From: Bradyrhizobium barranii subsp. barranii | Lineage (GTDB): Bacteria > Pseudomonadota > Alphaproteobacteria > Rhizobiales > Xanthobacteraceae | DNA: 64,000 nt | Assembly: GCF_017565645.3 (NCBI RefSeq) | Contig: NZ_CP086136.1 | Location: forward strand, 1,240,001-1,304,000 | Reading direction: 5' to 3' | In this document: one piece after another, positions 11,577-40,056 of the stretch | Position numbering within the stretch: position 1 is the stretch's first letter | Layout of the letters: each line of letters starts with the position of its first letter | Position numbers and translations under genes: made by a program | The notes under the pieces: model-generated | Databases searched by the model: none | What the model saw: only the letters and a program-made list of their open reading frames with translations | Told to the model about the DNA's origin: nothing

Positions 11577-12155
11577 TTACTTGAACGGATCCTGGATCGA
11601 TGGCGACGATTGCCGGATGCGGCGTACGCTCACCGGCTTGCCGTCGGAGACGAACAGCAGCTCGTACCGGCGGCCCTCGCTGTCGGTCGCCGTGCAGGTG
11701 ACGTCGGTGACCTTCCTTGCGGCGAAATTGCCGGTCTGGCGGCAGACGCCGGTCGAGGTCTGCTCGCCCGGCACCGGCAGGCCGTCGACCTTGGGTCGGT
11801 CCTTGGAATTGAGCAGCATGCGGTCGATTCGCAGCTCGTAGGAATTGTCGTCCGCGCGCTGGCCGTTCTCGCCGGAGAACGACACGACGTGGTTGGCGTC
11901 GGAGGGGTCGTCGACGGCGACTGCGAAATTGACCCGGCCCTTGTCGCCATGGGCGTAAGCCACTGTCTTGCAAGCGAAGGTGCGCCCCGCAACCTTCAGC
12001 GTCTTGCAGTGGCCCGACATCAGCGCCAGCAGGTCGATAAAGGCGTTTTGCGCCGGCGGGTTGTTGACGGGAATGGGCGCGGAAGACTCGGCGAAACAAG
12101 GGCTTGCGAGAGTCGCGAGGGCCGCGGCGAGGACCGGTCGGCGGAGGCGCATCAT
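11577..12155 (-). CDS. exported protein of unknown function
   Basis: 192 residues from the ATG at 12155 (a second ATG follows directly). The N-terminus is a clear signal peptide (LRRPVLAAALATLASPCFA, then ESSAP). The mature part has four Cys (GHCKTLKVAG, TFACKTVAY, GVCRQTG, VTCTATD) likely paired in the periplasm, and a repeated beta pattern such as VNFAVAVDD and YELRIDRMLL. No known domain can be named. It stands alone between the DUF3088 gene and the TTC38-like gene. Confidence 0.7.
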   Translation of the reverse strand: MMRLRRPVLAAALATLASPCFAESSAPIPVNNPPAQNAFIDLLALMSGHCKTLKVAGRTFACKTVAYAHGDKGRVNFAVAVDDPSDANHVVSFSGENGQRADDNSYELRIDRMLLNSKDRPKVDGLPVPGEQTSTGVCRQTGNFAARKVTDVTCTATDSEGRRYELLFVSDGKPVSVRRIRQSSPSIQDPFK

Positions 12156-12354
12156 CAGGCTCGTATGCCAGGGGGCCACGGCGGCGGGAAAGCTCCGCTC
12201 AACAACGAGCGAACCACAAATTGGTTGCGATCCCGTTTGTTCAGCTAAACCCGACTGGAATACCACCGCACCACCCATCGGCGATTCATCCGATCGCCCC
12301 ATCCCGTCCTAGCAGGCCACTTGCTGCCAGACCGATGTTTTTTTCGTGGCAGAG

Positions 12355-13671
12355 CTAGACGGTCGCCGCCTGCCAGCGCGCATCGCGCAAGGACGGCCGG
12401 CGGTGCAGGCGGGCATCGAGCAGCGCGCGGGCGCGGGGCAGCTCGCCGCTGCGCATGAGCGCGACGATGTAGGTATCCTCGATCAGTTCGCGCTGGGCAT
12501 GGCTGCCGCCGATGCGCACGACCTCGCCGAGGACGGGCGCGAGCGTTTGCACGCATGAGGTGTAATCCTCGCGGGCAAAGGCCACGAGCGCACGGCAGAT
12601 CGCCGGCACCACGGGACCGGCCGGCAGCTTGCCGTCGCCGAGCCGCTGCTCGATCGCCGCGAGGCGCGCGGCGAGCGCCTCCTGGTTCTGCGTCGCCGCA
12701 GCGAACAGCGCCATGTGGACGTCGGCAAACGGCAGACTCGATTTCGGAAACAGTTTTTGCGCGGTGGCATCGGCCTCGAGCCAGAGCGCTTCCGGCACGG
12801 CGTGGCCGTAAGCCGACAGGCGCCAGAGCAGTGAGGCGCCGTCGGTGACGACGTTGAGCGGCGGCGCCTTCGTGGCGGAGGGCCGAAGCTCGTCGGCATA
12901 GATCGCAAGCGCGCGCGCCGCATCGCCATGCTCGAGCGCGCCGAGCGCCTGGTGCCAGCGGATATGGCCGTGCAGGATGCCGGTGCGGTCGTAAGAGGGG
13001 ATCCACTCGTCGACGAGACGATCAGCCGCGTCGATCGAGCCGTCCTCGAACATCGCATGCAGCACGGCGTGCGCGGCGTGGGCGTTCTGACGGCGCAGGT
13101 CGAAGCCACGCTCGGTGACGCCGCGACCGCGCGCGACGTCGCCATTCTCGGTCATGGCCCAGCCGGACATGGTGAGAAACCACCAGTCCTCGCCATAATG
13201 CTGCGCGACGCGCTCGCACAGCTCGTGCCGGGCGCGGTCGTGATCGGGCATGCCGGAGAACGCGAACAGGCCGAACGCGCCGAGCGGCAGCGACAGCACC
13301 ACAGCGTCGCGCGGCCACGCGTCGATGTGCTTCAGCGTCGATGCGATCGCCTCGGGCAGCCGGCCCTCGATCGCAAGCGCCAGCGTCTCGACATGCGAGC
13401 GCTCGCGTTCCGTGCCGCGTTTCGCTGTGAGCTCGCGCGCGCGTGCCGCCTTCTGCCGGGCGAGATCGCCCTGCTGATAGAAGGCATGCACGCGGGCGCG
13501 GGCGATATGGGGCAGCGCGAAATCCGGATCGGCCGCAATCGCGCGTTCCAGCGCCTCCGCCGTGCCGGTCCAGCCGGCCAGCATGAGATCGACGCCTTCG
13601 CGATAGGCGCTTGCCGCCTCGTGCGAAGACGTCGAGAGCGAAAGGCCGTAGCGGTCTTCGTGCGCCGTCAT
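12355..13671 (-). CDS. TTC38-like tetratricopeptide repeat protein
   Basis: 438 residues, cytoplasmic, alpha-helical throughout. The N-terminal pattern YREGVDLMLAGWTGTAEALE with AIAADPDFALPHIARA, then HVETLALAIEGRLPEAIA and HGHIRWHQALGALEHGDAA, matches the TTC38 family (TPR protein 38), found in bacteria and animals. Function is not known; TPR superhelices generally bind other proteins. It ends 29 bases after the aldo/keto reductase gene context on the same strand: the reductase stop (13684) lies just 12 bp from this start, so the two are probably one transcript. Confidence 0.85.
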   Translation of the reverse strand: MTAHEDRYGLSLSTSSHEAASAYREGVDLMLAGWTGTAEALERAIAADPDFALPHIARARVHAFYQQGDLARQKAARARELTAKRGTERERSHVETLALAIEGRLPEAIASTLKHIDAWPRDAVVLSLPLGAFGLFAFSGMPDHDRARHELCERVAQHYGEDWWFLTMSGWAMTENGDVARGRGVTERGFDLRRQNAHAAHAVLHAMFEDGSIDAADRLVDEWIPSYDRTGILHGHIRWHQALGALEHGDAARALAIYADELRPSATKAPPLNVVTDGASLLWRLSAYGHAVPEALWLEADATAQKLFPKSSLPFADVHMALFAAATQNQEALAARLAAIEQRLGDGKLPAGPVVPAICRALVAFAREDYTSCVQTLAPVLGEVVRIGGSHAQRELIEDTYIVALMRSGELPRARALLDARLHRRPSLRDARWQAATV

Positions 13672-25829: not shown

Positions 25830-25871
25830 AAGCTAGCACCAATCCGGCCGTATGATGGATAGTGCACCCTC

Positions 25872-25917
25872 AAGGCAAGGCTCAAGCCAAGATTCAAGCC
25901 AAGATCCAAGCCAAGAC
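25872..25917. repeat. 12-bp tandem repeat upstream of a TPR gene
   Basis: CAAGCCAAGATT is repeated about three and a half times with single changes (variants ending ATC and ACT). It lies between divergent promoters of the antiporter and TPR-DUF1311 genes and may vary in copy number. Confidence 0.75.
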
Positions 25918-25935
25918 TTTCCGACTGCAGCAAGC

Positions 25936-26703
25936 ATGCGTTCTCAAAATCTCATTCGATTGTCCGGTGCGGTGGCGCTCTGTGCGCTTTCGCTTGGGGC
26001 GGCCCATGCCGCGACCGGCGGCGAGCCCGCCGCCGTCGTGCAGGTCGATGTCGCGCCGTGCCTCGCTGCTGCTGCTGCCGCCGACGACATGGACAAGGCC
26101 GGCCCCGCCTGCGCGTCCGTCATCGACAACGAGAAGACGGCCAAGGTGGACCTGGTCAAGGCGCTGGTCGCGCGCGGCGCGCTTTATGCGCGGCATGATC
26201 AGGTCGACCGCGCGATCGCCGACGACAGCCGTGCTCTTCAGCTCGATCCGACCCTGGCCGACCTCTTCAACGCCCGCGGCGAGCTCTGGCTGAAGAAGGG
26301 CGACAAGCCGAAGGCGGTGCAGGATTTCGGCGCCGCGCTGAAGATCGATCCGAACCACGAGAGGGCCAAGGCCAATCACAAGGCGATGGCGCGCGAGCTC
26401 GAGCGGATCGGCGCGCAGATGGCTGTGGCTGGCAAGCCAAGCTTCAATTGCAAGAGTGCGACCCGGGCGGTCGAGAAGGCGATCTGCGCCAACCGCGAGC
26501 TCGCCGATCTCGATCGGGAGATTTTTGCATCGAATGCCCGCGTGATCCGGGAGGCGCGCAATCCTGCGGAAGCCAAGGCGCTTCAGCGCGAGCAGGACGA
26601 GTTCATTGCCCGCCGCAATGCCGGATTTGGCCGGCCGGGCTACGATCTGAAGAAGACGATGCAGGAGCGGCTGCAGCGGATCAACGGGGTGGACGGGTAT
26701 TGA
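25936..26703 (+). CDS. exported TPR protein with C-terminal DUF1311 (LprI-like) domain
   Basis: 255 residues from the ATG at 25936, which places a signal peptide at the start (LIRLSGAVALCALSLGAAHA). Residues ~75-160 hold two TPR units (ALYARHDQVDRAIADDSRAL, LKKGDKPKAVQDFGAALKI). The C-terminal ~85 residues (FNCKSATRAVEKAICAN to GFGRPGYDLKK) are a DUF1311 domain with a Cys pair, a family that includes the lysozyme inhibitor LprI. A longer ATG at 25852 would read through the tandem repeat and is less likely. It is paralogous to the next gene, 129 bp downstream. Confidence 0.78.
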   Translation: MRSQNLIRLSGAVALCALSLGAAHAATGGEPAAVVQVDVAPCLAAAAAADDMDKAGPACASVIDNEKTAKVDLVKALVARGALYARHDQVDRAIADDSRALQLDPTLADLFNARGELWLKKGDKPKAVQDFGAALKIDPNHERAKANHKAMARELERIGAQMAVAGKPSFNCKSATRAVEKAICANRELADLDREIFASNARVIREARNPAEAKALQREQDEFIARRNAGFGRPGYDLKKTMQERLQRINGVDGY

Positions 26704-26831
26704 GGGCTTCGTTCGCCTCTCCCCGCAAGCGGGGAGAGGGAGCGATACGCCCGTGCGTCCCTAACAGGCCCGAATTCCATTCCTCGCCCGCCGCGACAAT
26801 GGTGAAAACCTGATGTCACGGAGTCTTCCTG

Positions 26832-28217
26832 ATGTGCGGCACGCGTTCTTCCGCGCAAATGTTCCCGTTTGCCAAAATCCCGCTTCGCGCCTTCCTGCTC
26901 AGCGCCGCGATGAGCCTTGTCCTCGCCGCTCCGGCCTCTGCTGCCGTCGATTGCGTGATGGGCAGCAAGACTGCGCCGGCCGAACTGATCACGGCGTGCG
27001 GCGCCATCATCGACCAGACCACCAATTCGAGCTCCGACCGCGCCGCCGCGCTGCTGGTGCGCGCCGACGCCAATGCGCGAACCTCAGGCGGCCTCACGCA
27101 GGCGCTGCGGGATATCGACCGCGCCATCGCGCTGGACGGCAAGAACGCAAAGGCCTGGCGCCTGCGCGGCGACCTGCTGCGCGAGGCCGGCGGCGATCTC
27201 AACCGTGCCGCGGCTGATCTCAGCAAGGCCATCGAACTCGATCCGCAGGACGCGGAAGCCTACGAGCTGCGCGGCGTCGTCTACACCAATCAGCGCCGGC
27301 TCGACCGCGCGCTCGCCGATTACGATCAGGCGATCAAGCTGAAGCCGGATGATGCGCAGGCCTGGTCCGACCGCGGCGTGAACTATTATCTCGGCGGTGA
27401 CAACGAGAAGGCGATCCGTGATCTCAGCGAGGCGCTGCGGCTCGATCCGAACCGGCCGCGCGCCTACACCAATCGCAGCGCGGCCTACAAGAAGCTCGGC
27501 CAGCTCGACAAGGCGGTCGCCGATGACGGCGAGGCGATCAGGCTCGATCCGAAGGTCCCCGAATATTACGACAATCGTGGCCTGGTGCTGGCCGCGATGG
27601 GTGAGTACGACAAGGCGATCGCCGACTACGACCAGGCGCTGCGGCTGGCGCCGCGGCCGAACTTCTTCACCAACCGCGGCGATTCCTACCAGCTCAAAGG
27701 CGAGCTTGGCGCGGCGCTCAGCGACTACGAGGCTGCGCTCAAGATCGATCCGAATTTCGCGCAGACCTTCAACAACCGCGCGGTGCTCTACAAGAAGATG
27801 GGCGAGCGCAAGAAGGCGCTGGCCGATTACGAGACGGCGCTGAAGCTCGATCCCGGCAACGAGAACGCGGCCAACGGCCGCCGCAGCATGATCGCCGAGA
27901 TCGCGAAGTTCGGCGCCGAGCCGCTGCGTCCGCTCGCGGCGAATTCCGGCAACGGCCCGTCGTTCGATTGCGCCACGGCAAAGCGCGAGGTCGAGAAGGT
28001 GATCTGCGCCGATCCGCAACTCGGCGTGCTCGATCGCCAGATCGCCGAGACCTATGAGCGGGTGCTGAAGGCCACGAAAGGCCGTTCGGCCGGCGACCTC
28101 CGCAAGACCCAGCGCGATTTCCTCGCCACGCGGAATGCGAGCTTCGGCCGGCCCGGCTATGATCTGAGGAAGGTTATGCAGGATCGCCTGCAGCGGCTGA
28201 ATGCGATGGAGAGTTGA
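26832..28217 (+). CDS. exported multi-TPR protein with C-terminal DUF1311 domain
   Basis: 461 residues with GGAG 8 bases before the ATG at 26832. Signal peptide ending APASAAV. About nine TPR repeats run from residue ~70 to ~350 (for example ALADYDQAIKLKPDDAQAWS, KAIADYDQALRLAP), then a DUF1311 domain (FDCATAKREVEKVICAD to FGRPGYDLRKVM) closes the protein, the same end as its smaller neighbour. Both Cys of the domain are kept. The TPR scaffold probably binds periplasmic partners; whether the end domain inhibits lysozyme is unknown. Confidence 0.82.
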   Translation: MCGTRSSAQMFPFAKIPLRAFLLSAAMSLVLAAPASAAVDCVMGSKTAPAELITACGAIIDQTTNSSSDRAAALLVRADANARTSGGLTQALRDIDRAIALDGKNAKAWRLRGDLLREAGGDLNRAAADLSKAIELDPQDAEAYELRGVVYTNQRRLDRALADYDQAIKLKPDDAQAWSDRGVNYYLGGDNEKAIRDLSEALRLDPNRPRAYTNRSAAYKKLGQLDKAVADDGEAIRLDPKVPEYYDNRGLVLAAMGEYDKAIADYDQALRLAPRPNFFTNRGDSYQLKGELGAALSDYEAALKIDPNFAQTFNNRAVLYKKMGERKKALADYETALKLDPGNENAANGRRSMIAEIAKFGAEPLRPLAANSGNGPSFDCATAKREVEKVICADPQLGVLDRQIAETYERVLKATKGRSAGDLRKTQRDFLATRNASFGRPGYDLRKVMQDRLQRLNAMES

Positions 28218-28235
28218 GGCGCCTCGACGCGCACA

Positions 28236-28355
28236 CTGCGTTCCCTCCCCCCCTTGCGGGGGAGGGTTAGGGAGAGGGGTGGCCACAAACTCTAGACCGA
28301 GTTCGTGGCCACCCCTCTCTCCCGCTCTCCCCCGCAAGGGGGAGAGGGCTAACCT
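28236..28355. repeat. long palindromic intergenic repeat
   Basis: Nested inverted arms: CCCTCCCCCCCTTGCGGGGG and its mirrored CCCCCGCAAGGGGGAGAGGG, with an inner perfect pair AGAGGGGTGGCCAC and GTGGCCACCCCTCT around CTCTAGACCGAG. The rest of the 28218-28549 gap shows nothing else. Confidence 0.8.
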
Positions 28356-28549
28356 TTGTCGTGGCTCCAGCTTGCTGCGATGGCCTTTCTTCCCTCCCTC
28401 CCAAAGACCCATCCTTTTCAGCTTGAACCGCGGCCCGTTCCCGGGAAAATACCTCTCAAACAACGCCGGCACTTGATCCCTGTCATGGCGGGACGCTCGT
28501 CCTGTCGGTCAGGTCAAGGCCAGGCGAATAAAGGGATGGGAGCGCGGGA

Positions 28550-30460
<1,911 letters not shown>

Positions 30461-30477
30461 GGCGATCTCCGCTGTCG

Positions 30478-30640
30478 TCACCCGCGAAAGCGGGTGATCC
30501 AGTACGCCGCGGCCGGAGTTGTGTGACCACCCAATGACCGCCGCGGAGTACTGGATTCCGCGCCTGCCGCCTACGCTAAAGCTTCGGCGCCCCTGGACCT
30601 CAACCCCGGCGAAGCCTTGGCGTAGCCGGGTCGCGGGGAA
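30478..30640. repeat. palindromic intergenic repeat (degenerate)
   Basis: Begins TCACCCGCGAAAGCGGGTGA then ATCCAGTACGCCGCGG, related to the ends of the dispersed element at 14870 and 17432, and continues with a shuffled GC-rich tract including GAGTACTGGATTCC. No coding content. Confidence 0.6.
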
Positions 30641-30723
30641 TGACAGCGCGTGGGGAACGACGCCCAGGGACTTACAATCTCCTCATTCCGGGCTAAACAG
30701 GGCCGGCCAACAGGGGACCTCGT

Positions 30724-30993
30724 ATGCCACTCGCCACCGCGCAGCGCCTGCTTGTCGCCGTGCTGCTCGCCGTCGCTGTCTCCGCCTGCTCCGCGCGCTA
30801 CCAGACGCCGGTGGCGGTGGGCGGTGACGATGACGACGCGGTCTGTCAGAGTCGCGGCTATGCGCAGGGCTCACCCGAATACGTGGCCTGCCGCAAGGAC
30901 CGCGACGTCCAGCGCAACGCTGCCACCGCCCGGTCCGACCGCCGTCAGCGCGATCTCGGCGAGTACATGCTGAACCATCCCGAGCGGCCTTGA
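30724..30993 (+). CDS. small lipoprotein of unknown function
   Basis: 89 residues. The lipobox VAVSAC places the lipidated Cys at 22 after a hydrophobic signal (LLVAVLLAVAVS). The mature peptide is short and charged: an acidic patch (GGDDDDAV), two more Cys (VCQSRGY, VACRKDRD) spaced 17 apart, and a basic end with RQRDLGEYMLNHPERP. Predicted to sit in the inner leaflet of the outer membrane or outer face of the inner membrane. No known family. It is the last core-type gene before the AT-richer block. Confidence 0.72.
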   Translation: MPLATAQRLLVAVLLAVAVSACSARYQTPVAVGGDDDDAVCQSRGYAQGSPEYVACRKDRDVQRNAATARSDRRQRDLGEYMLNHPERP

Positions 30994-31848
30994 CCCTTAC
31001 GAGAGCCACGAAGACCGTTCCAGGTCGGCCGGCGGATGTTTTTGGAGCGACTCGCCCCTGGTGACGCGAGACCGGGAGAGCATGCCGTCCTATGCGAGAA
31101 GCTGTCACCCTCTGGCAACCGTCGGGTCTCTCGGATATCTCAAGTCTGACCGATGGAGTAAGCGGCTAGAGGGGCGCAGATGGTTAATTTGCTTCGAGAT
31201 GCAGAGATCGAAGGTTTGTTGCAAGCGACGCCATCGTTGATCGAGAATTTTGACGCTAGCCGGCTAGCGGCAGGAAAATCTCCGGTGAAAGGTGCGACGC
31301 TCGATCTTGCGGTTGGCGACATCTTCGTGCCGGGAGCAAAAGTCAACAGACTTGGGGGATTGGAACGTCCCCGATCTCATTTGTCACTGAAGTGCGGACA
31401 AACTGCAATCTTACGAAGTTCCGAAAAGATTCATATGCCCAAGGATGTTGCGGGAATTGGGTTTCCGCCCTCTACAAGCGCATCGCTCGCTGGCCTTTTA
31501 AGTACCAATCCCGGGCACATTGATCCCGACTACGTCGGCTATCTGCATCTTACCGTCGTCAACATGGGGAAGGAGAATTTCCCCATTGCTCGTGGTGATA
31601 GAATGATGCGGGTGATGTTCTTCCAACTCGACGGTGACGCGCAGCGGAAGCTCGGTGAACTGCCGCCGCCTCTTACTGAGGAACTCTTGGGACGACTTTC
31701 ACACGACTTTCTTGACATTGACGATCGAGCAAAGAAGGCTGAAGAAGTCAGGCTCCGCTCGTGGCAACTTTGGGCCAGCTTCTTCGGTGCAGCATTAACC
31801 GTCGCTCTAACATTTGGATATCAATTGTTCATAGGCCAGCGTGATCTA

Positions 31849-32965
31849 GTACCCGGAATCAGAGCTGAGTGATACGGCGGCCTTTGAAACGGCGTTGACG
31901 GACCTTTTTCTTGGTCCAGACGAAGGGCTCGGCTCTGTCGTTGTATGCGTTGACGTAGGCATCGATGTGTTCCTGAAGCTGCTTGAGGCTCGTGAAGGAG
32001 GTGCCGCTGAGCGACTGCCCCTGCAAGATGGAAAACCATACTTCGACCTGATTGAGCCATGACGCACTTGTCGGCGTGAAATGAAATTGCACGTTGGGGT
32101 GGGCCTTGAGCCAGTCCTCGTTCTTTTTATGGGTGTTGAGGTTGTCGAGGATGACGTGAAGCTTGCGGTTCGGAAAAGCCGCGGTGACGCTGTTCATGAA
32201 ATCGAGAAACTCGACGCGGCGCCGGCGTTTTGAATGGGGCGCGATGATCTTTCCGGTGGCGACTTCGAGCGCCGCAAACAATGTTGTGGTGCCATGCCGC
32301 TTGTAATCGTGGCTTTGGCCGGTCAAGGCGCGGCCATTGGGCAACTTCAGATAACCCTGCGCTCGCTCCAAAGCCTGGATCGAGGGCTTCTCGTCCACGC
32401 ACAGCACAATGGCCTTCGCCGGCGGCGCGACATAGAGGCCGACAACATCGGCGGCTTTGGCCGTAAAGTTCGGTCGTTGCTCTCGCACCAGGACTTGCGA
32501 GCCACCAGGTCAATCTTGTGGCTGCGCAGGAACCGCCAGACATATTGGACATCGACATCGCCCAGCGCCTCGGCCAGCAGGGGGCCGGTCCAGCGCGCAA
32601 ACCCTTGCGGTGGCGGCTTATCCAGCAGCTTCAGAATCCGCTTGTCGGTCGTCTTCGTATAGATCGGCTGCTTGCCAGGCCGCGGCTTGTCTTGCAGCCC
32701 TTCAAGGCCATGGTCGGCATAGCGATGCCGCCAAAGGCTGACAATCCGCGGCTGGACCCCAACTTCCTTGGCGATCGACCGGGTGCTGCGCCCATCCGCC
32801 GCCAACAGAACTATCCGCGCCCGCTTCAAATCGCGCTGCAACGTCACCGGTGAGCGACAGCACGCCTCAAGCACCTTGCGATCTTTCCTCGAAAGGTGGA
32901 CTTCTCTTGCTTCGGGTATCATCCCGACCTTGAATCACGACTCACGCTCCAAGAAAAGTGGGTAC
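31849..32965 (-). mobile_element. IS630-family insertion sequence inside the Dcd-like gene
   Basis: About 1117 bp. Both ends start GTACCC (reading inward) and a related GAG..GTGA stretch lies just inside each. It is flanked by TA dinucleotides (31847-31848 and 32966-32967), the target duplication made by IS630/Tc1-type elements. Removing the element plus one TA restores the interrupted reading frame exactly, so the insertion is simple and fairly recent. Confidence 0.9.
31859..32922 (-). pseudogene. IS630 transposase in two frames
   Basis: The upstream part (32922 to about 32472) carries the helix-turn-helix region (RSTRSIAKEVGVQPRIVSLW, ADHGLEGLQDKPRPG) and a Trp-rich linker. The downstream part, in another frame (to the stop at 31859), holds the DDE catalytic domain: Asp in VLCVDEKPSIQA, Asp in VILDNLNTHKK and Glu in NQVEVWFSILQG. 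The frames part in the GACCGAAC context near 32472, where one extra base gives a single protein. Some IS630 elements use programmed frameshifting, but no slippery heptamer is evident; a lost base fits better. Confidence 0.85.
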
Positions 32966-33128
32966 TAGTCTCGCAAGTGTCGAAAATGGAGGGGCGACTA
33001 AACACGCTTGGAGGATCATTGAATGTTAGCTCTTTCGATGACCAGATAAAGAAGCTAGGACTCTTGGAGGAGCGTCTGAAGATGCTCGAAGCAAAGAGTT
33101 CTGCGACAAAACGATCTGGACGACGGTG

Positions 33129-33881
33129 ATGCCAAAGTTATTTGTGTTAGCGAGGCCATCTTTCACGGATGAATTTGCGACATTTTTGGCCGAAGAGAAT
33201 GAGGTTTGGCGGTTTGCTGGAGGGAGCGCAGCAGAGCGACTTGTGGAGTTTGCTGGTCGTATCTGCTACATGTCGTTTGGCCGTCGGCAATCTCCCAAGC
33301 GCAATTCGGAATATATTGGCAATCTTATTCGTCAGGGTCACGAGAGTGTCTTAGAGCACGTTTCCTGGACTTTCTTGCTTTCGGACGTTACGCGTTCTTT
33401 CACTCATCAGTTGGTGCGCCATCGCGCAGGCTTTTCCTTTAGTCAGTTATCGCAGCAATACCACGATGAGAGTGACGCGAGGTCGATCGTTCCAGAAGGA
33501 TTAGATGACATCCCAGGAGCGACTGAGGTGTTTGAGCGCGCAGTCAATGCTTCGCGGGAGGCTTATAGACAGATTTTGGCAAAGCTGGCGTCCGAACCGG
33601 ATCAGTCCAAGGAATCTCTGCGAGCAATCCGGAGCGCTGCTCGAAGTGTGCTGCTCAATGCGACCGAAACAAAAATAGTAATAACGGCCAACGCTCGTGC
33701 GATCAGGCACTTCTTAGATGTCCGTGGCGCGATAGATGGCGATGTGGAAATGCGGCGGGTAGCGAAACTAATTTACGATGTACTTATCGAGGATGCCCCA
33801 GCACTCGTCGCCGACTTTGTTGAAGAGAAGCTGTCCGATGGTACTCCTCGAATAGTAAAGATCCGCCAGTTGACGAGTTAG
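33129..33881 (+). CDS. thyX: flavin-dependent thymidylate synthase ThyX
   Basis: 250 residues from the ATG at 33129, overlapping the TGA of the Dcd-like gene (TGATG), so translation is coupled. ThyX methylates dUMP to dTMP with methylene-tetrahydrofolate, FAD and NADPH. Family marks: HESVLEHVSW (71-80), then RHR at 97-99 within RHRAGFSFSQLSQQY. The usual spacing from RHR to the Ser of the motif is seven residues; here it is eight, a variant also consistent with the QLSQQY context. A C-terminal EMRRVAKLIYDVLIEDAP follows. The stop TAG at 33879-33881 touches the IS1380 end. The gene is AT-richer than the core and belongs to the accessory pair. Chromosomal ThyA is not visible in this window. Confidence 0.9.
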   Translation: MPKLFVLARPSFTDEFATFLAEENEVWRFAGGSAAERLVEFAGRICYMSFGRRQSPKRNSEYIGNLIRQGHESVLEHVSWTFLLSDVTRSFTHQLVRHRAGFSFSQLSQQYHDESDARSIVPEGLDDIPGATEVFERAVNASREAYRQILAKLASEPDQSKESLRAIRSAARSVLLNATETKIVITANARAIRHFLDVRGAIDGDVEMRRVAKLIYDVLIEDAPALVADFVEEKLSDGTPRIVKIRQLTS

Positions 33882-35499
33882 CCCGTCCTATTCGTGAGAG
33901 TGCGGCTTTTTGGCCCGATTGATGCGGCCGCACATCTTGTCTGACGAGGCGCACAGGATTGCCTTCGGCTTTTCACCGCCTGACGACCCGTACTTTGCAA
34001 CGCGCTTGAGGTATAGGTTGGGCGAACGGGGGGCGGACGCCCCGCCGGTCAAGGACCGAGCGGCAGCAACGCGCCTGGCAAGCCGCGGATCAGGTCGGCT
34101 TCGGGACATGCCGCGGCAAACGCAAGGCGAATGCGGCTCGTGGTCTCGACCACACGGGCAGCGATTTTCAAGAGACGAAGACGCAGCGTCGCGAACTCGG
34201 CAGCGGCCAATTCCCGGGCTTTGGGAATGGCGTCGCGCACGGTCAGCATCAGCCAATAAGCGGCCGTATGGAGCACGAGACGGACCTGGTTGGCGAGCGC
34301 CGAACGGCAGCTGGTGCGGTCGGAGGCGAGCTGTGTCTTATGCAGCTTGATCAGATTCTCTGCTTGGCCGCGCGCGCAATACAGGCTGTCGTAGATCCAC
34401 TCGGCCGAGCCGACATCGAGGCTGGTGACGACGAAGCGGATGTCGAGGCCGAGCATCGTCGCCTCAATACGGGCGACAGTGCGCCGTTCGCGATCCCAGG
34501 ACTTTGCCTTGTGGCGCGTCTCGGTATAGCCACGCAGAACCGGCAGGTTCTCGATGGCGCGTCGCGTGCGGATGTCGTCGGCGACCTCGTCGACTTTTCT
34601 GGCGAGAGGCTTGGTGCCGGACAGACCGAAGATGTAGTCGATGCCGTTGGTCTCGCACCACGCCATGGCCTCCGGCCGGGCATAGTGCCCGTCGCCACGG
34701 AACGTAATTTGCGTGTTGTGCCATCGCGTCCGGATATGCCGTACCAGGCGGCGCAGATGGGCACGCACCTCGACGCCGCCCGGCGTCTTGCCGGGCCGCA
34801 GCACGACGGCCACGGGCCGGCTCTTCTCCGTGTCGTAGACGTGGATCGGCAGGAAGCAGCGTTCGTCATAATGAGCGTTGAACAGCGAGAGCTGCTGATG
34901 GCCGTGGACGACGTCGCAGGTATCATCGATGTCGAGCGTGACGGATGCCGGCTCGTGGGGGTAGCTATCCATCCATGCGTCGACCAAAATGTAGGTCAGC
35001 CGGATCACGTCGCGCAGGCGCGGAGCATTCTCCAGCCGCGACAGCGTCGGCTGGGAACACAAATCCCGGCCCGTGTCCGGCAGCCGTCCGCAGGCCAGTT
35101 TGAATGCCGGATCGGACCTCAGATGATCGAGGTCGTCGGCGTCCTCGTAGCCGCAGCAGATCGCGAACATGCGAGCGCGGAGCATATCGACCAGGCTGTG
35201 CACGACCCGCGTCGGATCGCGCCGATCCGGGAACACCCGGGCCAGATTGTTGGCCAAACCGAGACGCCGCTCGGCCATCGCCAGAAGCATCACGCCCCCG
35301 TTCGAGGTTAGGCGCCCACCATCGAAGGCAGCTGTGACTTTCTTGGCGTGAACGGCTGGAAACGAGAAGGGCGGAATCGTATCGTCGGTCATGGCGGGCG
35401 TGGCGTTCGCGGTTGGAGGTGATGGGGTTGGCTTCGCAACCGAATCCTACGCCGCATCAGCGCTTTACCCCTCAGGCGCACTCTTACGAATAAGACGGG
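33882..35499 (-). mobile_element. IS1380-family insertion sequence abutting thyX
   Basis: About 1618 bp with inverted ends CCCGTCCTATTCGTGAGAG (33882) and, reading in from 35499, CCCGTCTTATTCGTAAGAG, two mismatches over about 23 bp. The flanks read TTAG at left and TTAA at right, close to a TTAA-type target but not an exact duplication. The left end begins one base after the thyX stop codon. Relative to the solo end at 35709 the right end has lost about 14 bp. Confidence 0.88.
34049..35392 (-). CDS. IS1380-family transposase
   Basis: 447 residues, full length for the family and unbroken. Conserved parts: HAKKVTAAFDGGRLTSNGG near the start, SQPTLSRLEN, the first catalytic Asp region in ASVTLDIDDTCD, FRGDGHYARPEAM, and late ENLIKLHKTQLASDRTSC and AAYWLMLTVRDA. 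Cut-and-paste DDE enzyme that mobilises the enclosing element. Start at 35392. It could also mobilise the solo end just downstream. Confidence 0.93.
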   Translation of the reverse strand: MTDDTIPPFSFPAVHAKKVTAAFDGGRLTSNGGVMLLAMAERRLGLANNLARVFPDRRDPTRVVHSLVDMLRARMFAICCGYEDADDLDHLRSDPAFKLACGRLPDTGRDLCSQPTLSRLENAPRLRDVIRLTYILVDAWMDSYPHEPASVTLDIDDTCDVVHGHQQLSLFNAHYDERCFLPIHVYDTEKSRPVAVVLRPGKTPGGVEVRAHLRRLVRHIRTRWHNTQITFRGDGHYARPEAMAWCETNGIDYIFGLSGTKPLARKVDEVADDIRTRRAIENLPVLRGYTETRHKAKSWDRERRTVARIEATMLGLDIRFVVTSLDVGSAEWIYDSLYCARGQAENLIKLHKTQLASDRTSCRSALANQVRLVLHTAAYWLMLTVRDAIPKARELAAAEFATLRLRLLKIAARVVETTSRIRLAFAAACPEADLIRGLPGALLPLGP

Positions 35500-35708
35500 T
35501 TAAGTTGAAGAAAGATTGAGTGACTCCCGATCATTTCTGTGCCGAAACGTGGAGTCGCGGTCGTGCCGCGTCCAAAGAAACCGGCGCGAGCGGCCTATTA
35601 GACGCGGTAGGTGATCAGCCTCCGAAACGAGACTATCAAGCATGAAGAGATCGAGCGCGAGGCAGAGGTTTTATTTGTGTTGAATTCTTGCTTCTCGATA
35701 GTGGTCTG

Positions 35709-35848
35709 AAATCGTATCATCGGTCATGGCGGGCGTGGCGTTCGCGGTTGAAGGTGATGGGGTGGCTTCGCAACCGAATCCTACGCCGCATCAGCGCTTT
35801 ACACCACGCTCGCCAGCCTCTCAGGCGCCCTCTCGCGAATAAGACGGG
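35709..35848 (-). mobile_element. solo end of a second IS1380 copy
   Basis: About 140 bp matching the transposase start and terminal region of the complete element (35374-35499), ending in the same GACGGG terminus. Only about 15 bp of coding sequence remain. It is a deletion remnant; the 200 bp between the two copies (35504-35708) shows no gene. Confidence 0.82.
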
Positions 35849-35993
35849 TTAACGCGCACACAATTCGCCGGGAATGGACGCAATAGTACCGAAATATAAC
35901 GCACGGAATTATCCTGCCGCGCTATTCGCTCATTCGCGTTTCTCGTGACACATCGGCAACGCCACAACCGAATCGTGTCGCGTCAGTCCTGAT

Positions 35994-36007
35994 TTGATCG
36001 GCGTCAA
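35994..36007 (+). promoter_or_regulatory. FixK/FNR-type box upstream of the OmpW gene
   Basis: TTGATCGGCGTCAA is a perfect TTGA-N6-TCAA palindromic site for CRP/FNR regulators such as FixK2, the microaerobic activator of Bradyrhizobium. Its centre is about 83 bp upstream of the OmpW start, leaving room for a promoter at about 40 bp downstream of it. Confidence 0.75.
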
Positions 36008-36083
36008 ATCCATCACCATCCCCTTTCTGCTCTGACGCTGATGTCGCGCAACGACGCGCGAGAGATGGCTGAAGGGGAATGCA

Positions 36084-36830
36084 ATGAACGGAACGACAAA
36101 AAACCTGGCGCGGCTTGCGACGGTTGGCGCGATGCTCGTGGGGACTTTTGGCTCGGTACAGGCGGCCGATCTGCCTGTCTATAAGAAGGCACCGCCGCCG
36201 GTAGAAGCGTTCAATCCGTGGATGGTGCGTCTGCGCGTGCTTGGCGTGTTGCCGGATGCCGGTGGCTCAACCGTCAATGTCGCAGGCGTGCCGTCGCTGT
36301 CGTCGCCGAATTCCGGGCTCTCGATCAGCGACCAGGTCGTGCCCGAGCTCGACATCAGCTATTTCTTCACCAGGAACATCGCGGCCGAGCTGATCCTCGG
36401 CGTGACCAGGCACTCGATCAGCGGCAACGGCTCGCTCGCGAACCTGCCGATCGGCAAGACCACGCTGCTGCCGCCGACGCTGACCTTGCAATATCACTTC
36501 GACAATTTCGGCGCGTTCAAGCCGTATATCGGCGCCGGCGTGAACTACACCGTGTTCTTCAACAATTCGGCTGCCAATGCGCCAGCCGCCATCGTCGGTC
36601 CGCCCGCGATCGTTGCCACCACCACCAGCGTGCACGTCAGCAACGCCTGGGGCGGCGCCGTGCAGTTCGGCTTTGACTACATGCTCGACCGGCACTGGGG
36701 TCTCAACGTCGACGTCAAGAAGCTCTGGCTGCGGCCGGATTACTCAGCGACCGTCAGCGGCCTGCCGGTCACAGGCACCGCGCATATCGATCCGTGGCTG
36801 GTCGGTGGCGGTGTGACGTACAAGTTTTGA
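36084..36830 (+). CDS. OmpW-family outer membrane beta-barrel protein
   Basis: 248 residues. Signal peptide ending GSVQAADLPVYKK; then NPWMVRLRVLGVLPDAG, matching the first OmpW strand, ISYFFTRNIAAELILGVTRH, and the highly conserved LQYHFDNFGAFKPYIGAGVNY (positions ~138-158), ending in aromatic Phe (VGGGVTYKF), needed for assembly. Eight-strand barrel with a hydrophobic channel for small molecules. A FixK-type box upstream suggests induction under low oxygen, as reported for ompW genes in other bacteria. It is monocistronic. Confidence 0.93.
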   Translation: MNGTTKNLARLATVGAMLVGTFGSVQAADLPVYKKAPPPVEAFNPWMVRLRVLGVLPDAGGSTVNVAGVPSLSSPNSGLSISDQVVPELDISYFFTRNIAAELILGVTRHSISGNGSLANLPIGKTTLLPPTLTLQYHFDNFGAFKPYIGAGVNYTVFFNNSAANAPAAIVGPPAIVATTTSVHVSNAWGGAVQFGFDYMLDRHWGLNVDVKKLWLRPDYSATVSGLPVTGTAHIDPWLVGGGVTYKF

Positions 36831-36867
36831 CGCGTTGTTTGAAGACGAACTGTGGCCGCGGTTGACC

Positions 36868-37020
36868 CTGCGCTCCCTCCCCCCTTGCGGGGGAGGGCGG
36901 GGGAGAGGGGCAGCCCAGCAAAAGGCGCGAGAGAGCTTCGCCAGCCGCTTTGAATTGATGGAGGAAGTCCCCGTGGGGCAACCCCTCTTCCCAACCTTCC
37001 CCCGCAAGGGGGGAGGGGAC
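36868..37020. repeat. palindromic intergenic repeat
   Basis: Outer arms CCCTCCCCCCTTGCGGGGG and CCCCCGCAAGGGGGGAGGGG, with inner GAGAGGGGCAGCCC and GGGGCAACCCCTCTTCCC. Related to 28236. It lies downstream of the OmpW gene and may terminate its transcript. Confidence 0.7.
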
Positions 37021-37068
37021 TGCAGCTTGCGTGTGGCTGCATCTGTGCCGATCGCGAGGGTCTCCGCA

Positions 37069-37101
37069 AAACAAAAACGCGGCAGGTTTCCCCGCCGCGT
37101 T
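37069..37101 (-). terminator. rho-independent terminator of trcR
   Basis: On the minus strand an 8-bp stem AACGCGGC/GCCGCGTT (37094-37101 with 37076-37083) is followed by TTTGTTTT. It sits 35 bp after the trcR stop. Confidence 0.8.
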
Positions 37102-37136
37102 CAAATTGCGTTCGATGACGAATTGAGAGGGGAGCC

Positions 37137-37832
37137 TTACTCCTCCTCCTCGTCCTGCTTCTTGCCACCGAGCGTCTTCAGCTTGGCGAACACGGCGTCG
37201 ACGTTGAGGTCGTCGTTCGATCGCTCTGCCGGCTCGAACTCGTCCTTCTTGGTGGTTTCGGAGGCCGGCAGCAGGGTGGCGCCACCGTAGGATGCGTCGA
37301 TCGGCTTTTCCTTCGCAGCGCGCGCCACTTCGAAATCGAGCTCGATCTGCGAGCAAAGGCCAAGCGTCACCGGGTCGATCGGGGTCAGCTGGGAGGTGTT
37401 CCAGTGGGTACGGTCGCGAACGCTGGCGATGGTGCTCTTGGTGGTGCCGACCAGGCGCATGACCTGGGCGTCCTTGAGCTCCGGATGGCTGCGCAGCAGC
37501 CAGAGGATGGCGCTCGGGCGCTCGTGACGGCGGGAGACCGGGGTGTAGCGCGGGCCCTTGCGCTTGGGCTGGGGCGGCAGAATCACCTTGCTCTCCTGGA
37601 GGCGGAGTCGGTAGTCCGGGTTCCTCTCGCCCTTCTCGATCTCCTCGCGGGTCAACTGGCCGTTGGAGAGGGGATCCATGCCCTTGATGCCCTGAGCAGC
37701 GTCGCCGTCGGCGATCGCGCGCACCTCGAGGGGATGCATCTTGGTGAAATCGGCGACCTGGTCGAAGGTCAGCGCGGTGTTGTCGAGCAGCCAGACGGCG
37801 GTCGCCTTGGGCATCAGAGGTGCGTTGCTCAT
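37137..37832 (-). CDS. trcR: TrcR, cell-cycle transcriptional regulator (DUF1013)
   Basis: 231 residues from the ATG at 37832, with AAGGAG placed well upstream. It begins with PLMPKATAVWLLDNTALTFD and PLEVRAIADGD, a DNA-binding helix-turn-helix region of the DUF1013 family; GPRYTPVSRRHERPSAILWL and IASVRDRTHWN are other conserved parts. TrcR is an essential alphaproteobacterial regulator implicated with CtrA-era cell-cycle control. The C-terminus is acidic (GGKKQDEEEE). Monocistronic with its own terminator; divergent from ispH. Confidence 0.9.
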   Translation of the reverse strand: MSNAPLMPKATAVWLLDNTALTFDQVADFTKMHPLEVRAIADGDAAQGIKGMDPLSNGQLTREEIEKGERNPDYRLRLQESKVILPPQPKRKGPRYTPVSRRHERPSAILWLLRSHPELKDAQVMRLVGTTKSTIASVRDRTHWNTSQLTPIDPVTLGLCSQIELDFEVARAAKEKPIDASYGGATLLPASETTKKDEFEPAERSNDDLNVDAVFAKLKTLGGKKQDEEEE

Positions 37833-38097
37833 GGCAAATCTCCTTTGTGCTTCGCCCACCCCTCTGGAGGCGAAACCGGTGGTCATCAGCGATGACAGGG
37901 AATTCGCGCTATATAAGCCCGGAGGGGCTAGCCACGCAATGGTTCTGCTATAGATAGTGCCTTGACAGAGCCCGAAAGGGGGCCCAATTCCCTTGGAAGC
38001 GCCTGTAAAGTCCTAGCAGACCCACTAAAGCCCTATTCCATCCATTGACCGCCCCCGCCAGAAGGCGAAACGGGTGATTCGGTCCCGAGATCGCTCA

Positions 38098-39066
38098 ATG
38101 TCAGCCAAACCAGACCTCAAGATCGTGCTTTGTTCTCCCCGCGGCTTCTGCGCCGGGGTGGTCCGGGCGATCGACACCGTGGAACGGGCGCTCGATAAAT
38201 ACGGCGCCCCCGTCTATGTTCGCCACGAGATTGTGCACAACAAATACGTCGTCGACGGGTTGAAGAAGAAGGGCGCGATCTTCGTCGAGGAGCTCGCCGA
38301 AATCCCGGAAAACACCACCGCGCCGGTGGTGTTCTCGGCCCATGGCGTGCCGAAATCGGTCCCGGCCGACGCCACCTCCCGCAATTTGTTCTCGCTGGAT
38401 GCGACCTGCCCGCTGGTGACCAAGGTGCACCGCGAGGCCGCCATCCACTTCAAGCGCGGCCGCGAGATCTTCCTGATCGGCCATTCCCACCACCCCGAAG
38501 TGGTCGGCACGCTCGGCCAGCTTCCGGTCGGCGCCGTGACCCTGATCGAGACCGCCGAGGACGCCAAGACCATCGTCCCGAAGAACCCCGACAACATCGC
38601 CTTCGTGACTCAGACCACGCTGTCGATCGACGACACCGCAGAGATCGTGGCGCTGCTCAAGGAGCGCTTCCCGAATATCAACGGCCCGCACAAGGAAGAC
38701 ATCTGCTACGCCACCACCAACCGCCAGCTCGCGGTGAAGAAGGTGGCGCCGGTGGTCGACGCCCTGATCGTGGTCGGCGCTCCGAACTCGTCGAACTCGC
38801 AGCGCCTGCGCGAGGTCGCCGAGCGCGAAGGCTGCGGGATCGCAGTGCTGGCGCAGCGCGCCACCGACATCGACTGGACCAGGTTCGGCAACATCAAGAG
38901 CCTCGGCATCACCGCGGGCGCGTCCGCGCCGGAAGTGATCGTCGAGGAGATCATGGATGCGTTCGCCGAGCGCTACACGCTGCATGTGGAGACGGTCTCG
39001 GCCGCGGAAGAGAACGAGTTCTTCCCGCTGCCGCGCCAGGTGCGCCCCGAAGCCGCCGCCGAGTAG
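38098..39066 (+). CDS. ispH: 4-hydroxy-3-methylbut-2-enyl diphosphate reductase
   Basis: 322 residues, the last enzyme of the MEP isoprenoid pathway, making IPP and DMAPP. It holds a [4Fe-4S] cluster bound by three Cys: Cys18 in PRGFCAGV, Cys104 in [11 protein letters not shown], and the Cys in [11 protein letters not shown]. Further family residues: [19 protein letters not shown] and [11 protein letters not shown]. Start at 38098 chosen over the in-frame ATG at 38074 because the protein then begins at the family's usual place. First gene of ispH-thrB-rnhA; thrB starts 6 bp after its stop. Confidence 0.97.
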
Positions 39067-39072
39067 ACCTTT

Positions 39073-40056
39073 ATGGCGGTCTACACCGACGTTGCCGCCG
39101 ACGAGCTTGCGGATTTCCTGAAGCAATACGATCTCGGCGAGTTGCTCTCCTACAAGGGCATCGCCGAGGGCGTCGAGAACACCAACTTCCTGCTGCACAC
39201 GAGCAAAGGCTCGTTCATCCTCACGCTCTATGAGAAGCGCGTGGCGAAGAACGACCTGCCGTTCTTCCTCGCGCTGATGACGCATCTCGCTGAGCACGGC
39301 GTCACCTGCCCGCTGCCTGTGAAGGCCGGGGACGGCGAGGCGCTGCGCGAGCTGTCGGGCCGGCCGGCCGCGATCATCACCTTTCTCGAAGGCGTTTGGC
39401 CGCGCAAGCCGAACGTGGCCCATTGCGCCGGCGTCGGCGAGGGGCTGGCCAGGATGCATCTGGCCGGCGCCAATTTTGCGATCAAACGTGGCAATGCACT
39501 ATCGGTCTCCGGCTGGCGGCCGCTGTTCGACGCGGCGGCAAGCCGCGCCGATGAGGTCCAGCCGGGCCTGCATGCGTTTCTCGCCGCCGAGCTCGACTAT
39601 CTCTCGAGCGGGGTCTGGCCGACTGATCTGCCTGAAGGCGTGATCCACGCCGATCTCTTCAACGACAACGTCTTCTTCCTCGGCGACAAGCTCTCCGGCA
39701 TCATCGACTTCACCTTCGCCTGCAACGACATGCTGGCCTATGACGTCGCGATCTGCCTGAATGCCTGGTGTTTTGAGCCGGACCATTCGTTCAACGTCAC
39801 CAAGGCGCGCGCCTTCCTCAATGCCTATGGCCGTGTGCGAAAACTTTCCGAGGCGGAAGAAGCCGCGCTGCCGCTGCTCGCGCGCGGCGCCGCGATCCGC
39901 TTCCTGCTGACCCGCCTGGTCGACTGGCTCAACGTGCCTCCAGGAGCGCTGGTCAAGCCCAAGGACCCGCTGGAATATTTTCGCAAGCTGCGCTTCCACC
40001 AGAGCGTTTCCAGCGTGCGCGACTACGGGCTGATGCCGTCAGGACTGGTCGCGTGA
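39073..40056 (+). CDS. thrB: homoserine kinase (ThrB, APH-fold type)
   Basis: 327 residues of the alphaproteobacterial ThrB2-type kinase related to aminoglycoside phosphotransferases, unlike the GHMP kinase of E. coli. It phosphorylates homoserine in threonine synthesis. Marks: [18 protein letters not shown] near the N-terminus, catalytic [14 protein letters not shown] with Asp and Asn, and [18 protein letters not shown] for metal binding. It overlaps rnhA by 4 bp (GTGA). Confidence 0.95.

Follow-up and report, generated by a model that had tools for sequence, protein, structure and literature searches.

The window analysed here is a 64,000-nucleotide stretch of Bradyrhizobium barranii subsp. 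barranii (contig NZ_CP086136.1, forward-strand positions 1,240,001 to 1,304,000), taken from an 11.4-Mb assembly; all positions below are those of the window. It carries two overlapping genes, the first encoding a protein with the Dcd/dUTPase fold and a predicted membrane span (Dcd-like), the second a flavin-dependent thymidylate synthase of the ThyX family. An earlier note, made from the sequence alone, had described this pair, and its start at 31180, its content and its TGATG overlap at 33127-33131 were all borne out. The features of the locus, several of which involve insertion sequences (IS), are the following.

30995..35903, no strand: acquired AT-rich island of ~4.9 kb, absent from all 11 loci fetched from the same genus (L211-L221)
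31180..31848, + strand: Dcd-like membrane gene, 5′ part, 223 codons (PF22769, 6e-11; PF00692, 3.4e-7; family alignments)
31780..31836, + strand: predicted membrane span, borderline with a hydropathy of 1.54, at residues 201-219 (intact relatives have theirs at the same position)
31849..32965, − strand: IS630-type element within the Dcd-like gene (DDE_3, 7e-22, and helix-turn-helix domains, in two overlapping frames)
32968..33129, + strand: 3′ part of the Dcd-like membrane gene, encoding a helical tail that by eye is a coiled coil (frame matches the P0002 C-terminus)
33129..33881, + strand: ThyX-family gene, SQQY clade (PF02511, 5e-47; TIGR02170 above cut-off; trees)
33417..33461, + strand: ThyX substrate-recognition segment RHRAGFSFSQLSQQY (HMMER alignment to 3gwc; motif in 18 of 18 linked ThyX)
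34049..35392, − strand: second transposase, DDE_Tnp_1_4 type, inside the island and downstream of the pair (PF13701, 3e-167)

The stop codon of the Dcd-like gene (TGA, 33127-33129) overlaps the start codon of thyX (ATG, 33129-33131). In the 5′ part, the Dcd/dUTPase-fold domain occupies approximately residues 7-150 and is followed by a linker and then by the hydrophobic span. The earlier note had placed the pair in an AT-rich, recently acquired and IS-bounded block. The composition agrees, with GC contents of 0.52 for the Dcd-like gene and 0.51 for thyX versus 0.64 for the window. The IS boundary needed refinement: a second transposase does lie downstream, but the IS630-type element is inside the first gene. 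This element has GTACCC ends and a TA duplication at 31847-31848 and 32966-32967 (read from the sequence), and each flank, taken by itself, matches intact relatives (P0002, for example, at 80% identity). Because the element truncates the membrane protein, the module is probably dead in this genome.

The acquisition itself was examined with positions 30300-31000 as query against 60 genomes of the same genus, from which 12 loci, including the window's own, were fetched. In eight of the other 11, the match runs to ~30994 and then, within 6-51 bases, continues from ~35901-35943 onward; in L212, L216 and L221 it also runs to ~30994 and continues, within 27-309 bases, from ~37063-37070. Since none of the 11 matches any of the intervening sequence, 30995-35903 is an insertion in this genome. 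No tRNA gene was found at the island site, within window positions 26000-40000.

Linkage of the two genes

The earlier note had proposed that the two genes are coupled and had named co-occurrence among homologues as the check. In the forward direction, 17 of the 21 other genome loci with a Dcd-like gene have a nearby thyX. Three of the four unlinked loci (L034, L036 and L050) end inside the Dcd-like gene, and among loci with DNA beyond that gene the linkage is 17 of 18, the exception being the fragment L051. At 14 of the linked loci thyX lies directly downstream on the same strand; at the other three, all from Acidobacteria, it is on the opposite strand, ~0.7-2 kb away, with other genes in between. 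The 13 same-strand pairs measured show overlaps of 4 bases in five and 11 bases in two, gaps of 9-47 bases in five and a gap of 223 bases in one. The distances between Dcd-like proteins co-vary with those between their ThyX partners (r 0.62; 0 of 20000 permutations; 17 loci). Spacing and distances were computed without L039, whose gene is split; for the window and L041 the Dcd-like protein was a partial one, and the thyX starts were chosen by hand.

The reverse direction, starting from ThyX in viral contigs, gave the same picture. Five SQQY loci (named for the ThyX motif described below) were found. In all four with upstream DNA a Dcd-like gene immediately precedes thyX (E 1e-56 to 1e-58), and the fifth begins at a contig edge. 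The Dcd-like gene was found at none of the nine viral loci with an SxR[YF] ThyX, and was absent too from L114, of the Acidobacteria sample. Chance neighbourhood is ruled out by the linkage in both directions. In addition, for six metagenomic Dcd-like proteins there is a ThyX match whose longest contig has the same size (19529, 7828, 2170, 1718, 1977 and 118385 bases), and this equality suggests that the two matches are on the same contigs.

Related membrane proteins also occur beside other genes. On a phage contig with portal and tail genes (L052:7865-10508), a Dcd-like membrane protein is adjacent to a ThyA-type thymidylate synthase and a PfkB kinase, with no ThyX. Diverged membrane Dcd-fold proteins lie beside a gene resembling cytidine or deoxycytidine monophosphate (dCMP) deaminases (L059:1432-2790) and beside a MazG_C gene (L061, whole, 2816 bases). 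A search for more relatives of the ThyA-linked form found one, cut off; for the L059 form it found none.

Residues kept and lost in the two proteins

A protein search with the window's Dcd-like protein returned 25 matches, its own included, with full-length members of 261-298 amino acids; with the E. coli member as query, 47 matches were returned. The match of the window's protein to Pfam DCD (PF22769) is above the Pfam cut-off and is accompanied by the weaker one to dUTPase (PF00692). The truncated protein misses the cut-off of the NCBIfam dCTP-deaminase equivalog TIGR02274 (45.5 vs 92.8 bits). In alignments, the family shows a Dcd/dUTPase domain, mostly an R-L-S-x-D-F linker, a hydrophobic stretch and a helical tail which, by eye, looks like a coiled coil. 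Taking the best 19-residue hydropathy window as the measure of a span, the C-terminal half peaks at 1.37-2.86 in 30 full-length proteins, 27 of which reach at least 1.6. The three below this value are all close kin of the window's protein (P0002, 1.53; P0007, 1.40; P0009, 1.37). The predicted span is clear in distant members, but likely and only borderline in the window's own branch, since one ordinary dUTPase reaches a maximum of 1.41 inside the fold. Thus, of the layout given in the earlier note, the fold is confirmed by profile, the span is likely and the coiled coil is a reading by eye.

We compared the motifs of 32 family proteins aligned with two ordinary dUTPases. The family resembles dCTP deaminase (PF22769 / TIGR02274) in its fold, its N-terminal layout and, in many members, a QPxSxDLxxG-like motif 1. 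It differs in the column, within the motif-3 strand, that holds the catalytic Glu of dCTP deaminase, which is Thr, Cys or Tyr in 32 of 32, and in the loss, again in all 32, of RSSLAR, the dCTP deaminase signature, mostly replaced by FPPS or FPPA; the hydrophobic span and helical tail are extra. The earlier note had reported both losses for the window's protein, and they hold for the family. With dUTPase (Dut, PF00692) the family shares motif 3 (NPGxxDPxY/FxG), retained in 32 of 32 together with the Asp at the catalytic position. Unlike dUTPase, it lacks the motif-2 Arg in 31 of 32 (the E. coli protein, L209, has it) and the motif-4 Gln in all 32, and no Gly-rich motif-5 tail is visible by eye in the alignment, the hydrophobic span standing there instead. 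The lost motifs rule out an ordinary deaminase or dUTPase, in line with the inactive-looking domain described earlier. Judging by these residues, the Dcd-like domain probably has a binding and not an enzymatic function.

The second gene was correctly identified as a flavin thymidylate synthase, scoring 160.6 bits against Thy1 (PF02511; cut-off 24.8) and 141.2 bits against TIGR02170 (cut-off 87.9). The linked ThyX proteins match the whole profile and, as in other ThyX, the RHR, the motif Ser, the motif Tyr and the equivalent of Arg199 are invariant. The usual ThyX signature has RHRx7S and a conserved Arg in SxR[YF]. Unlike this, all 18 linked ThyX (the window's and those of the 17 loci) read RHRxGFxxSQLSQQY, with SQQY for SxRY and, from RHR to Ser, one extra residue (RHRx8S) that also occurs in a few SxR[YF] relatives. 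In the HMMER alignment to 3gwc, the last Gln of SQQY (Gln110 in the window, 33456-33458) occupies the position of Arg107 of the M. tuberculosis enzyme, usually the pyrimidine-contacting Arg of SxRY. The Arg is present in 8 of 8 comparison ThyX and in two more read separately. In PolB, Arg98 of the same S-x-R-Y segment contacts the pyrimidine O4 and the phosphate (PMC5003785), and Arg90 of the T. maritima enzyme is described as conserved and close to the catalytic Tyr91 (PMC11940539). We infer that the Gln may alter the base preference of SQQY ThyX.

The Gln also marks a lineage. In the tree, 24 SQQY rows form one clade with 100/100 support, and eight relatives with SxR[YF], among them the nearer viral ones, fall outside it; a first tree of 18 SQQY rows, which left out L062 (short read of the frame), gave the clade 100/97. 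The ratio of nonsynonymous to synonymous substitution (dN/dS) is low in both genes, 0.04-0.19 in the seven of 12 comparisons with an estimable dS, where dS is itself near saturation (1.6-3.5).

Distribution, redundancy and genomic context

Hosts of linked loci belong to the Acidobacteriota, Verrucomicrobiota, Actinomycetota and Pseudomonadota. Within the window's own class (385 genomes), SQQY ThyX was found in two genomes, its own and that of L044, both with a Dcd-like partner, and a third, weaker ThyX match reads SQRY. The Acidobacteria phylum (297 genomes) yields a single SQQY match, in the centre genome. The presence of the pair in four phyla, yet its absence from near relatives, speaks for spread by horizontal transfer. 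No Dcd-like match was found in plasmid and named-phage collections with P0002 or L118 as query. In the same family, 261 of 391 genomes have matches at E 0.001, the best after the window's own being 3e-8; these we take for ordinary Dut or Dcd, the dUTPase motif being found by pattern in 13 of the 29 other loci fetched and the rest being unread.

Redundancy was checked in 16 of the 17 linked host genomes (that of L032 was left out) and in the window's own genome, G000. Another gene of a thymidylate synthase family is present in all 16 and in G000, where it is ThyA and the window's ThyX is the only one. ThyA was found in ten of the 16 (and on the virus contig L052), and the remaining six have a further ThyX-family gene. 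In five of these, all Acidobacteria, it is a two-domain frame of 476-587 amino acids in which the canonical motif was not found by pattern, one of them (G776) having an SxRF form as well; in the sixth (G783) it is a canonical SARY form. These additional genes rule out a housekeeping role for the linked thyX, which, unlike ordinary ThyX, is both supernumerary and paired with a Dcd-like gene.

The neighbourhood of the pair looks defence-like. At 1e-10, 113 neighbour frames from 15 loci match 78 PADLOC families versus 5 for an equal number of control frames, taken from 12 of these genomes, a contrast that is an indication only, because families rather than proteins are counted and methyltransferase models overlap. 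The controls are 113 of 120 picked frames (one frame of 1873 amino acids in L103 and six in L105 were left out); control L105 starts ~10 kb from its pair and control L095 is on another contig. In L038 a Schlafen-helicase defence candidate (PDC-S41, 2e-134) adjoins thyX on the same strand. In L046 a CARF protein lies beside the pair, preceded by a conjugation coupling protein, and L043 has a radical-SAM protein that PADLOC classes as viperin-like (8.5e-19) but in which Pfam finds a SPASM domain.

In four viral loci (L115, L117, L118 and L119), the order is a presumed repressor, a presumed P2-like integrase, the Dcd-like gene and thyX, with little or nothing beyond. The same order is found in a P2-like prophage of E. 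coli TUM12355 (L209), one of 5426 complete E. coli genomes, where the annotation reads repressor CI, site-specific integrase, 'dCTP deaminase domain-containing protein' (the Dcd-like gene, 11927-12712) and thyX (12715-13482). This copy makes the pair testable in a laboratory strain at once. At the other variable site of the same prophage, between replication and portal genes, is another PADLOC defence candidate, PDC-S06 (AAA_13; L209:3784-6120).

To survey this slot, the first gene after the integrase was recorded at 80 loci (L129-L208), the best matches among at least 595 relatives of the integrase. It belongs to family c1 in 22, c2 in 19, c4 in seven, c0 (by its look another integrase) in six, c5 in four and c7 in three; the Dcd-like/thyX pair follows in two, families seen once in seven, the contig end in seven and no nearby frame in three. 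The two cases of the pair (L180 and L189) add no new instances, because they are the contigs of L119 and L115. Family c5 is the PADLOC dCTPase family (2.5e-146, one of four members scanned). Representatives of c1, c2, c4 and c7 match no PADLOC model at 0.01; Pfam gives nothing for c1, c2 and c7, and two weak matches below cut-off for c4. The dCTPase is a nucleotide enzyme used for defence, as is proposed for the pair, and like the pair it stands first after the integrase in sister P2-like loci (four of the 80); it differs in being a single protein with a zinc-deaminase domain (dCMP deaminase in the one scanned), of another fold, with no ThyX and no membrane part. The pair is mobile and patchy and lies in defence-like neighbourhoods or as prophage cargo, as anti-phage modules do, although many of the other genes in the slot have no known function. 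The P2 hotspot on the cos side, described in PMC9122126, is a different place, and the Vibrionaceae hotspot of the same paper lies between repressor and integrase.

Possible role of the pair, and minor observations

Of the earlier interpretation, the structural claims, the coupling and the acquisition have stood, and neither of the outcomes named there as refuting it came about: homologues are linked, and the deaminase residues are missing from the domain. Its suggestion of a phage-related role draws support from context, namely the prophage slot common to a dCTPase-type gene and the defence-like neighbours; sensing, the identity of the nucleotide, the membrane effect and defence itself are what we infer. 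The phage defences known to work through nucleotides are active deaminases, dGTPases and a few signal systems. Our preferred reading, which we hold to be evenly balanced between right and wrong, is that the pair would form one mobile nucleotide-based module, sensor plus enzyme, acting against phages or other mobile elements. The ThyX-family enzyme with its Gln would make a changed pyrimidine deoxynucleotide, or act on one arising in the course of infection. The Dcd/dUTPase-fold domain, in which the motif-3 hairpin is kept and the catalytic and phosphate-binding residues are lost, would bind that nucleotide as the sensor. Through the conserved linker the signal would reach the hydrophobic span and the tail, which would halt the growth of the infected cell at the membrane. 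If so, pyrimidine deoxynucleotides from the thymidylate-synthase fold would join the list of immune signals, and there would be a direct, testable reason for redundant ThyX genes.

A bolder idea, which we think unlikely, is a new form of immune signalling in which a ThyX of switched pyrimidine specificity makes a non-self deoxynucleotide upon infection, for example 5-methyl-dCMP from dCMP or another C5-changed nucleotide, and a dead dUTPase/Dcd-fold membrane receptor senses it and kills or arrests the cell. Were it true, the relatives at L052, L059 and L061 would imply a whole class with one receptor scaffold and exchangeable nucleotide enzymes.

A number of observations weigh against the sensor-and-enzyme module. 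With regard to linkage, the Dcd-like gene of L051, where a contig begins, is a fragment that stops after ~50 residues, and the 5.3 kb that follow contain no thyX; membrane Dcd-fold proteins in L058-L061 have no thyX in their fetched flanks; and Dcd/dUTPase-like frames also adjoin a two-domain ThyX in L083. The linkage counts are those of the genome and viral loci; the metagenomic Dcd-like proteins are more numerous (cluster P0156 alone stands for 364 contigs), and among the 120 ThyX matches listed of 6368, 118 read SQQY by pattern, one SQHY, and one starts with RHK and has SQQY. In the gamma class (350 genomes), the centre genome is the sole strong match, followed by three matches at 1e-28. 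In L112, L114, L120 and L122, RHRx8S occurs together with the Arg, so the extra residue is not clade-specific and only the Gln is; the branching within the SQQY clade is resolved only in part and leaves the window's place uncertain, and several of the branches outside it are long. As for the proteins, the span of the window's own branch is borderline (1.54), the retained motif-3 Asp leaves room for weak catalysis, and in four hosts the sole other thymidylate synthase is the two-domain form in which the canonical motif was not found. Besides the counting of families in the PADLOC tally, some neighbours are metabolic (HflX in L042, GcvP in L045, ketopantoate reductase in L047, ThiC in L036), and the slot is not proved a defence site, because its commonest cargo families have no known function. 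Among the 5027 models of PADLOC-DB 2.0.0, none matches P0002 or the window's ThyX at E 0.001, or the E. coli Dcd-like protein at 0.01. No published phage, binding or enzyme test of the pair was found.

Literature searches that combined thymidylate synthases, ThyX included, with dCTP deaminase, defence or prophages turned up no description of the pair, as judged from the listings. We know of no protein family that it has in common with the Kongming system (KomA/KomB/KomC). The likeness is one of logic only: Kongming has a nucleotide-altering enzyme, a nucleotide-binding sensor and an effector, as proposed for the pair, but with the purine deoxyinosine triphosphate (dITP) and NAD depletion (PMC12948488). 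A thymidylate synthase domain has been validated in phage defence in a DefensePredictor system, whose figure legend lists TS beside the abbreviations dNMPk, 5hmdUk, NMAD, TM and CC, and the same paper gives dUTPase and MazG among predicted defence domains (PMC13092281). That system may be this pair or another.

The likeliest rival, still rather unlikely in our view, is that the pair acts on the deoxynucleoside triphosphate (dNTP) pool, starving or unbalancing phage DNA synthesis directly, with the Dcd-like part tethering or regulating the enzyme and no signal molecule. Direct dNTP-pool defences are known, namely dCTP deaminase and dGTPase. The slot shared with the PADLOC dCTPase family fits such a module, as do the additional genes in Acidobacteria, where five of six loci (L032, L035, L037, L038 and L041) have a NUDIX-family gene (PF00293, 1e-18 in L035) and four of these also a gene with a weak MazG match, below the Pfam cut-off. 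However, ThyX makes a DNA precursor and does not destroy it, the Dcd-like part has lost the deaminase and phosphate motifs, and a membrane anchor would be unneeded.

Accessory metabolism, which we regard as distinctly unlikely, would make the pair a mobile spare thymidylate synthase that raises deoxythymidine monophosphate (dTMP); the Dcd-like protein would either hold this enzyme at the membrane or regulate it through binding a nucleotide. That ThyX is intact by profile, with its motif Ser, Tyr and Arg199 equivalent invariant, and is common in phages (1004 of 50697 records), is what one would expect of such an enzyme. Set against this, the hosts examined already possess a thymidylate-synthase-family gene, and the Arg-to-Gln change marks the partnered clade, all nine viral SxR[YF] ThyX being without the partner.

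It is improbable that the pair is a toxin-antitoxin system, in which the membrane protein would be the toxin and ThyX or its product would restrain it, although this overlaps with the sensor-and-enzyme module. Two overlapping genes and a small membrane protein are consistent with it, and the Dcd-like gene is broken with ThyX open in the window (by the IS element), in L039 and L041 (split frames) and in L051 (cut short). The split frames, however, are in draft metagenome-assembled genomes and possibly sequence errors, and a large enzyme would be an unusual antitoxin. Least probable of all, and very much so, is a nucleoside modification pathway, for a natural product or for DNA, through a substrate-shifted ThyX: it has a precedent in PolB of polyoxin biosynthesis (PMC5003785) and would suit the ThyA, PfkB, cytidine/dCMP-deaminase-like and MazG_C genes beside the related membrane Dcd-fold proteins, but BLAST clustering shows no further recurrent gene around the pair except in Acidobacteria, and the two-gene form is the common one.

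Outside the island, window positions 30463-30665 resemble an interspersed repeat: eight further matches are listed for the same genome, and relatives have many. Further upstream, 25852-26703 and 26832-28217 encode adjoining repeat-rich proteins with similar Cys-containing C-terminal domains, presumably LprI-like, apparently the result of a tandem duplication.

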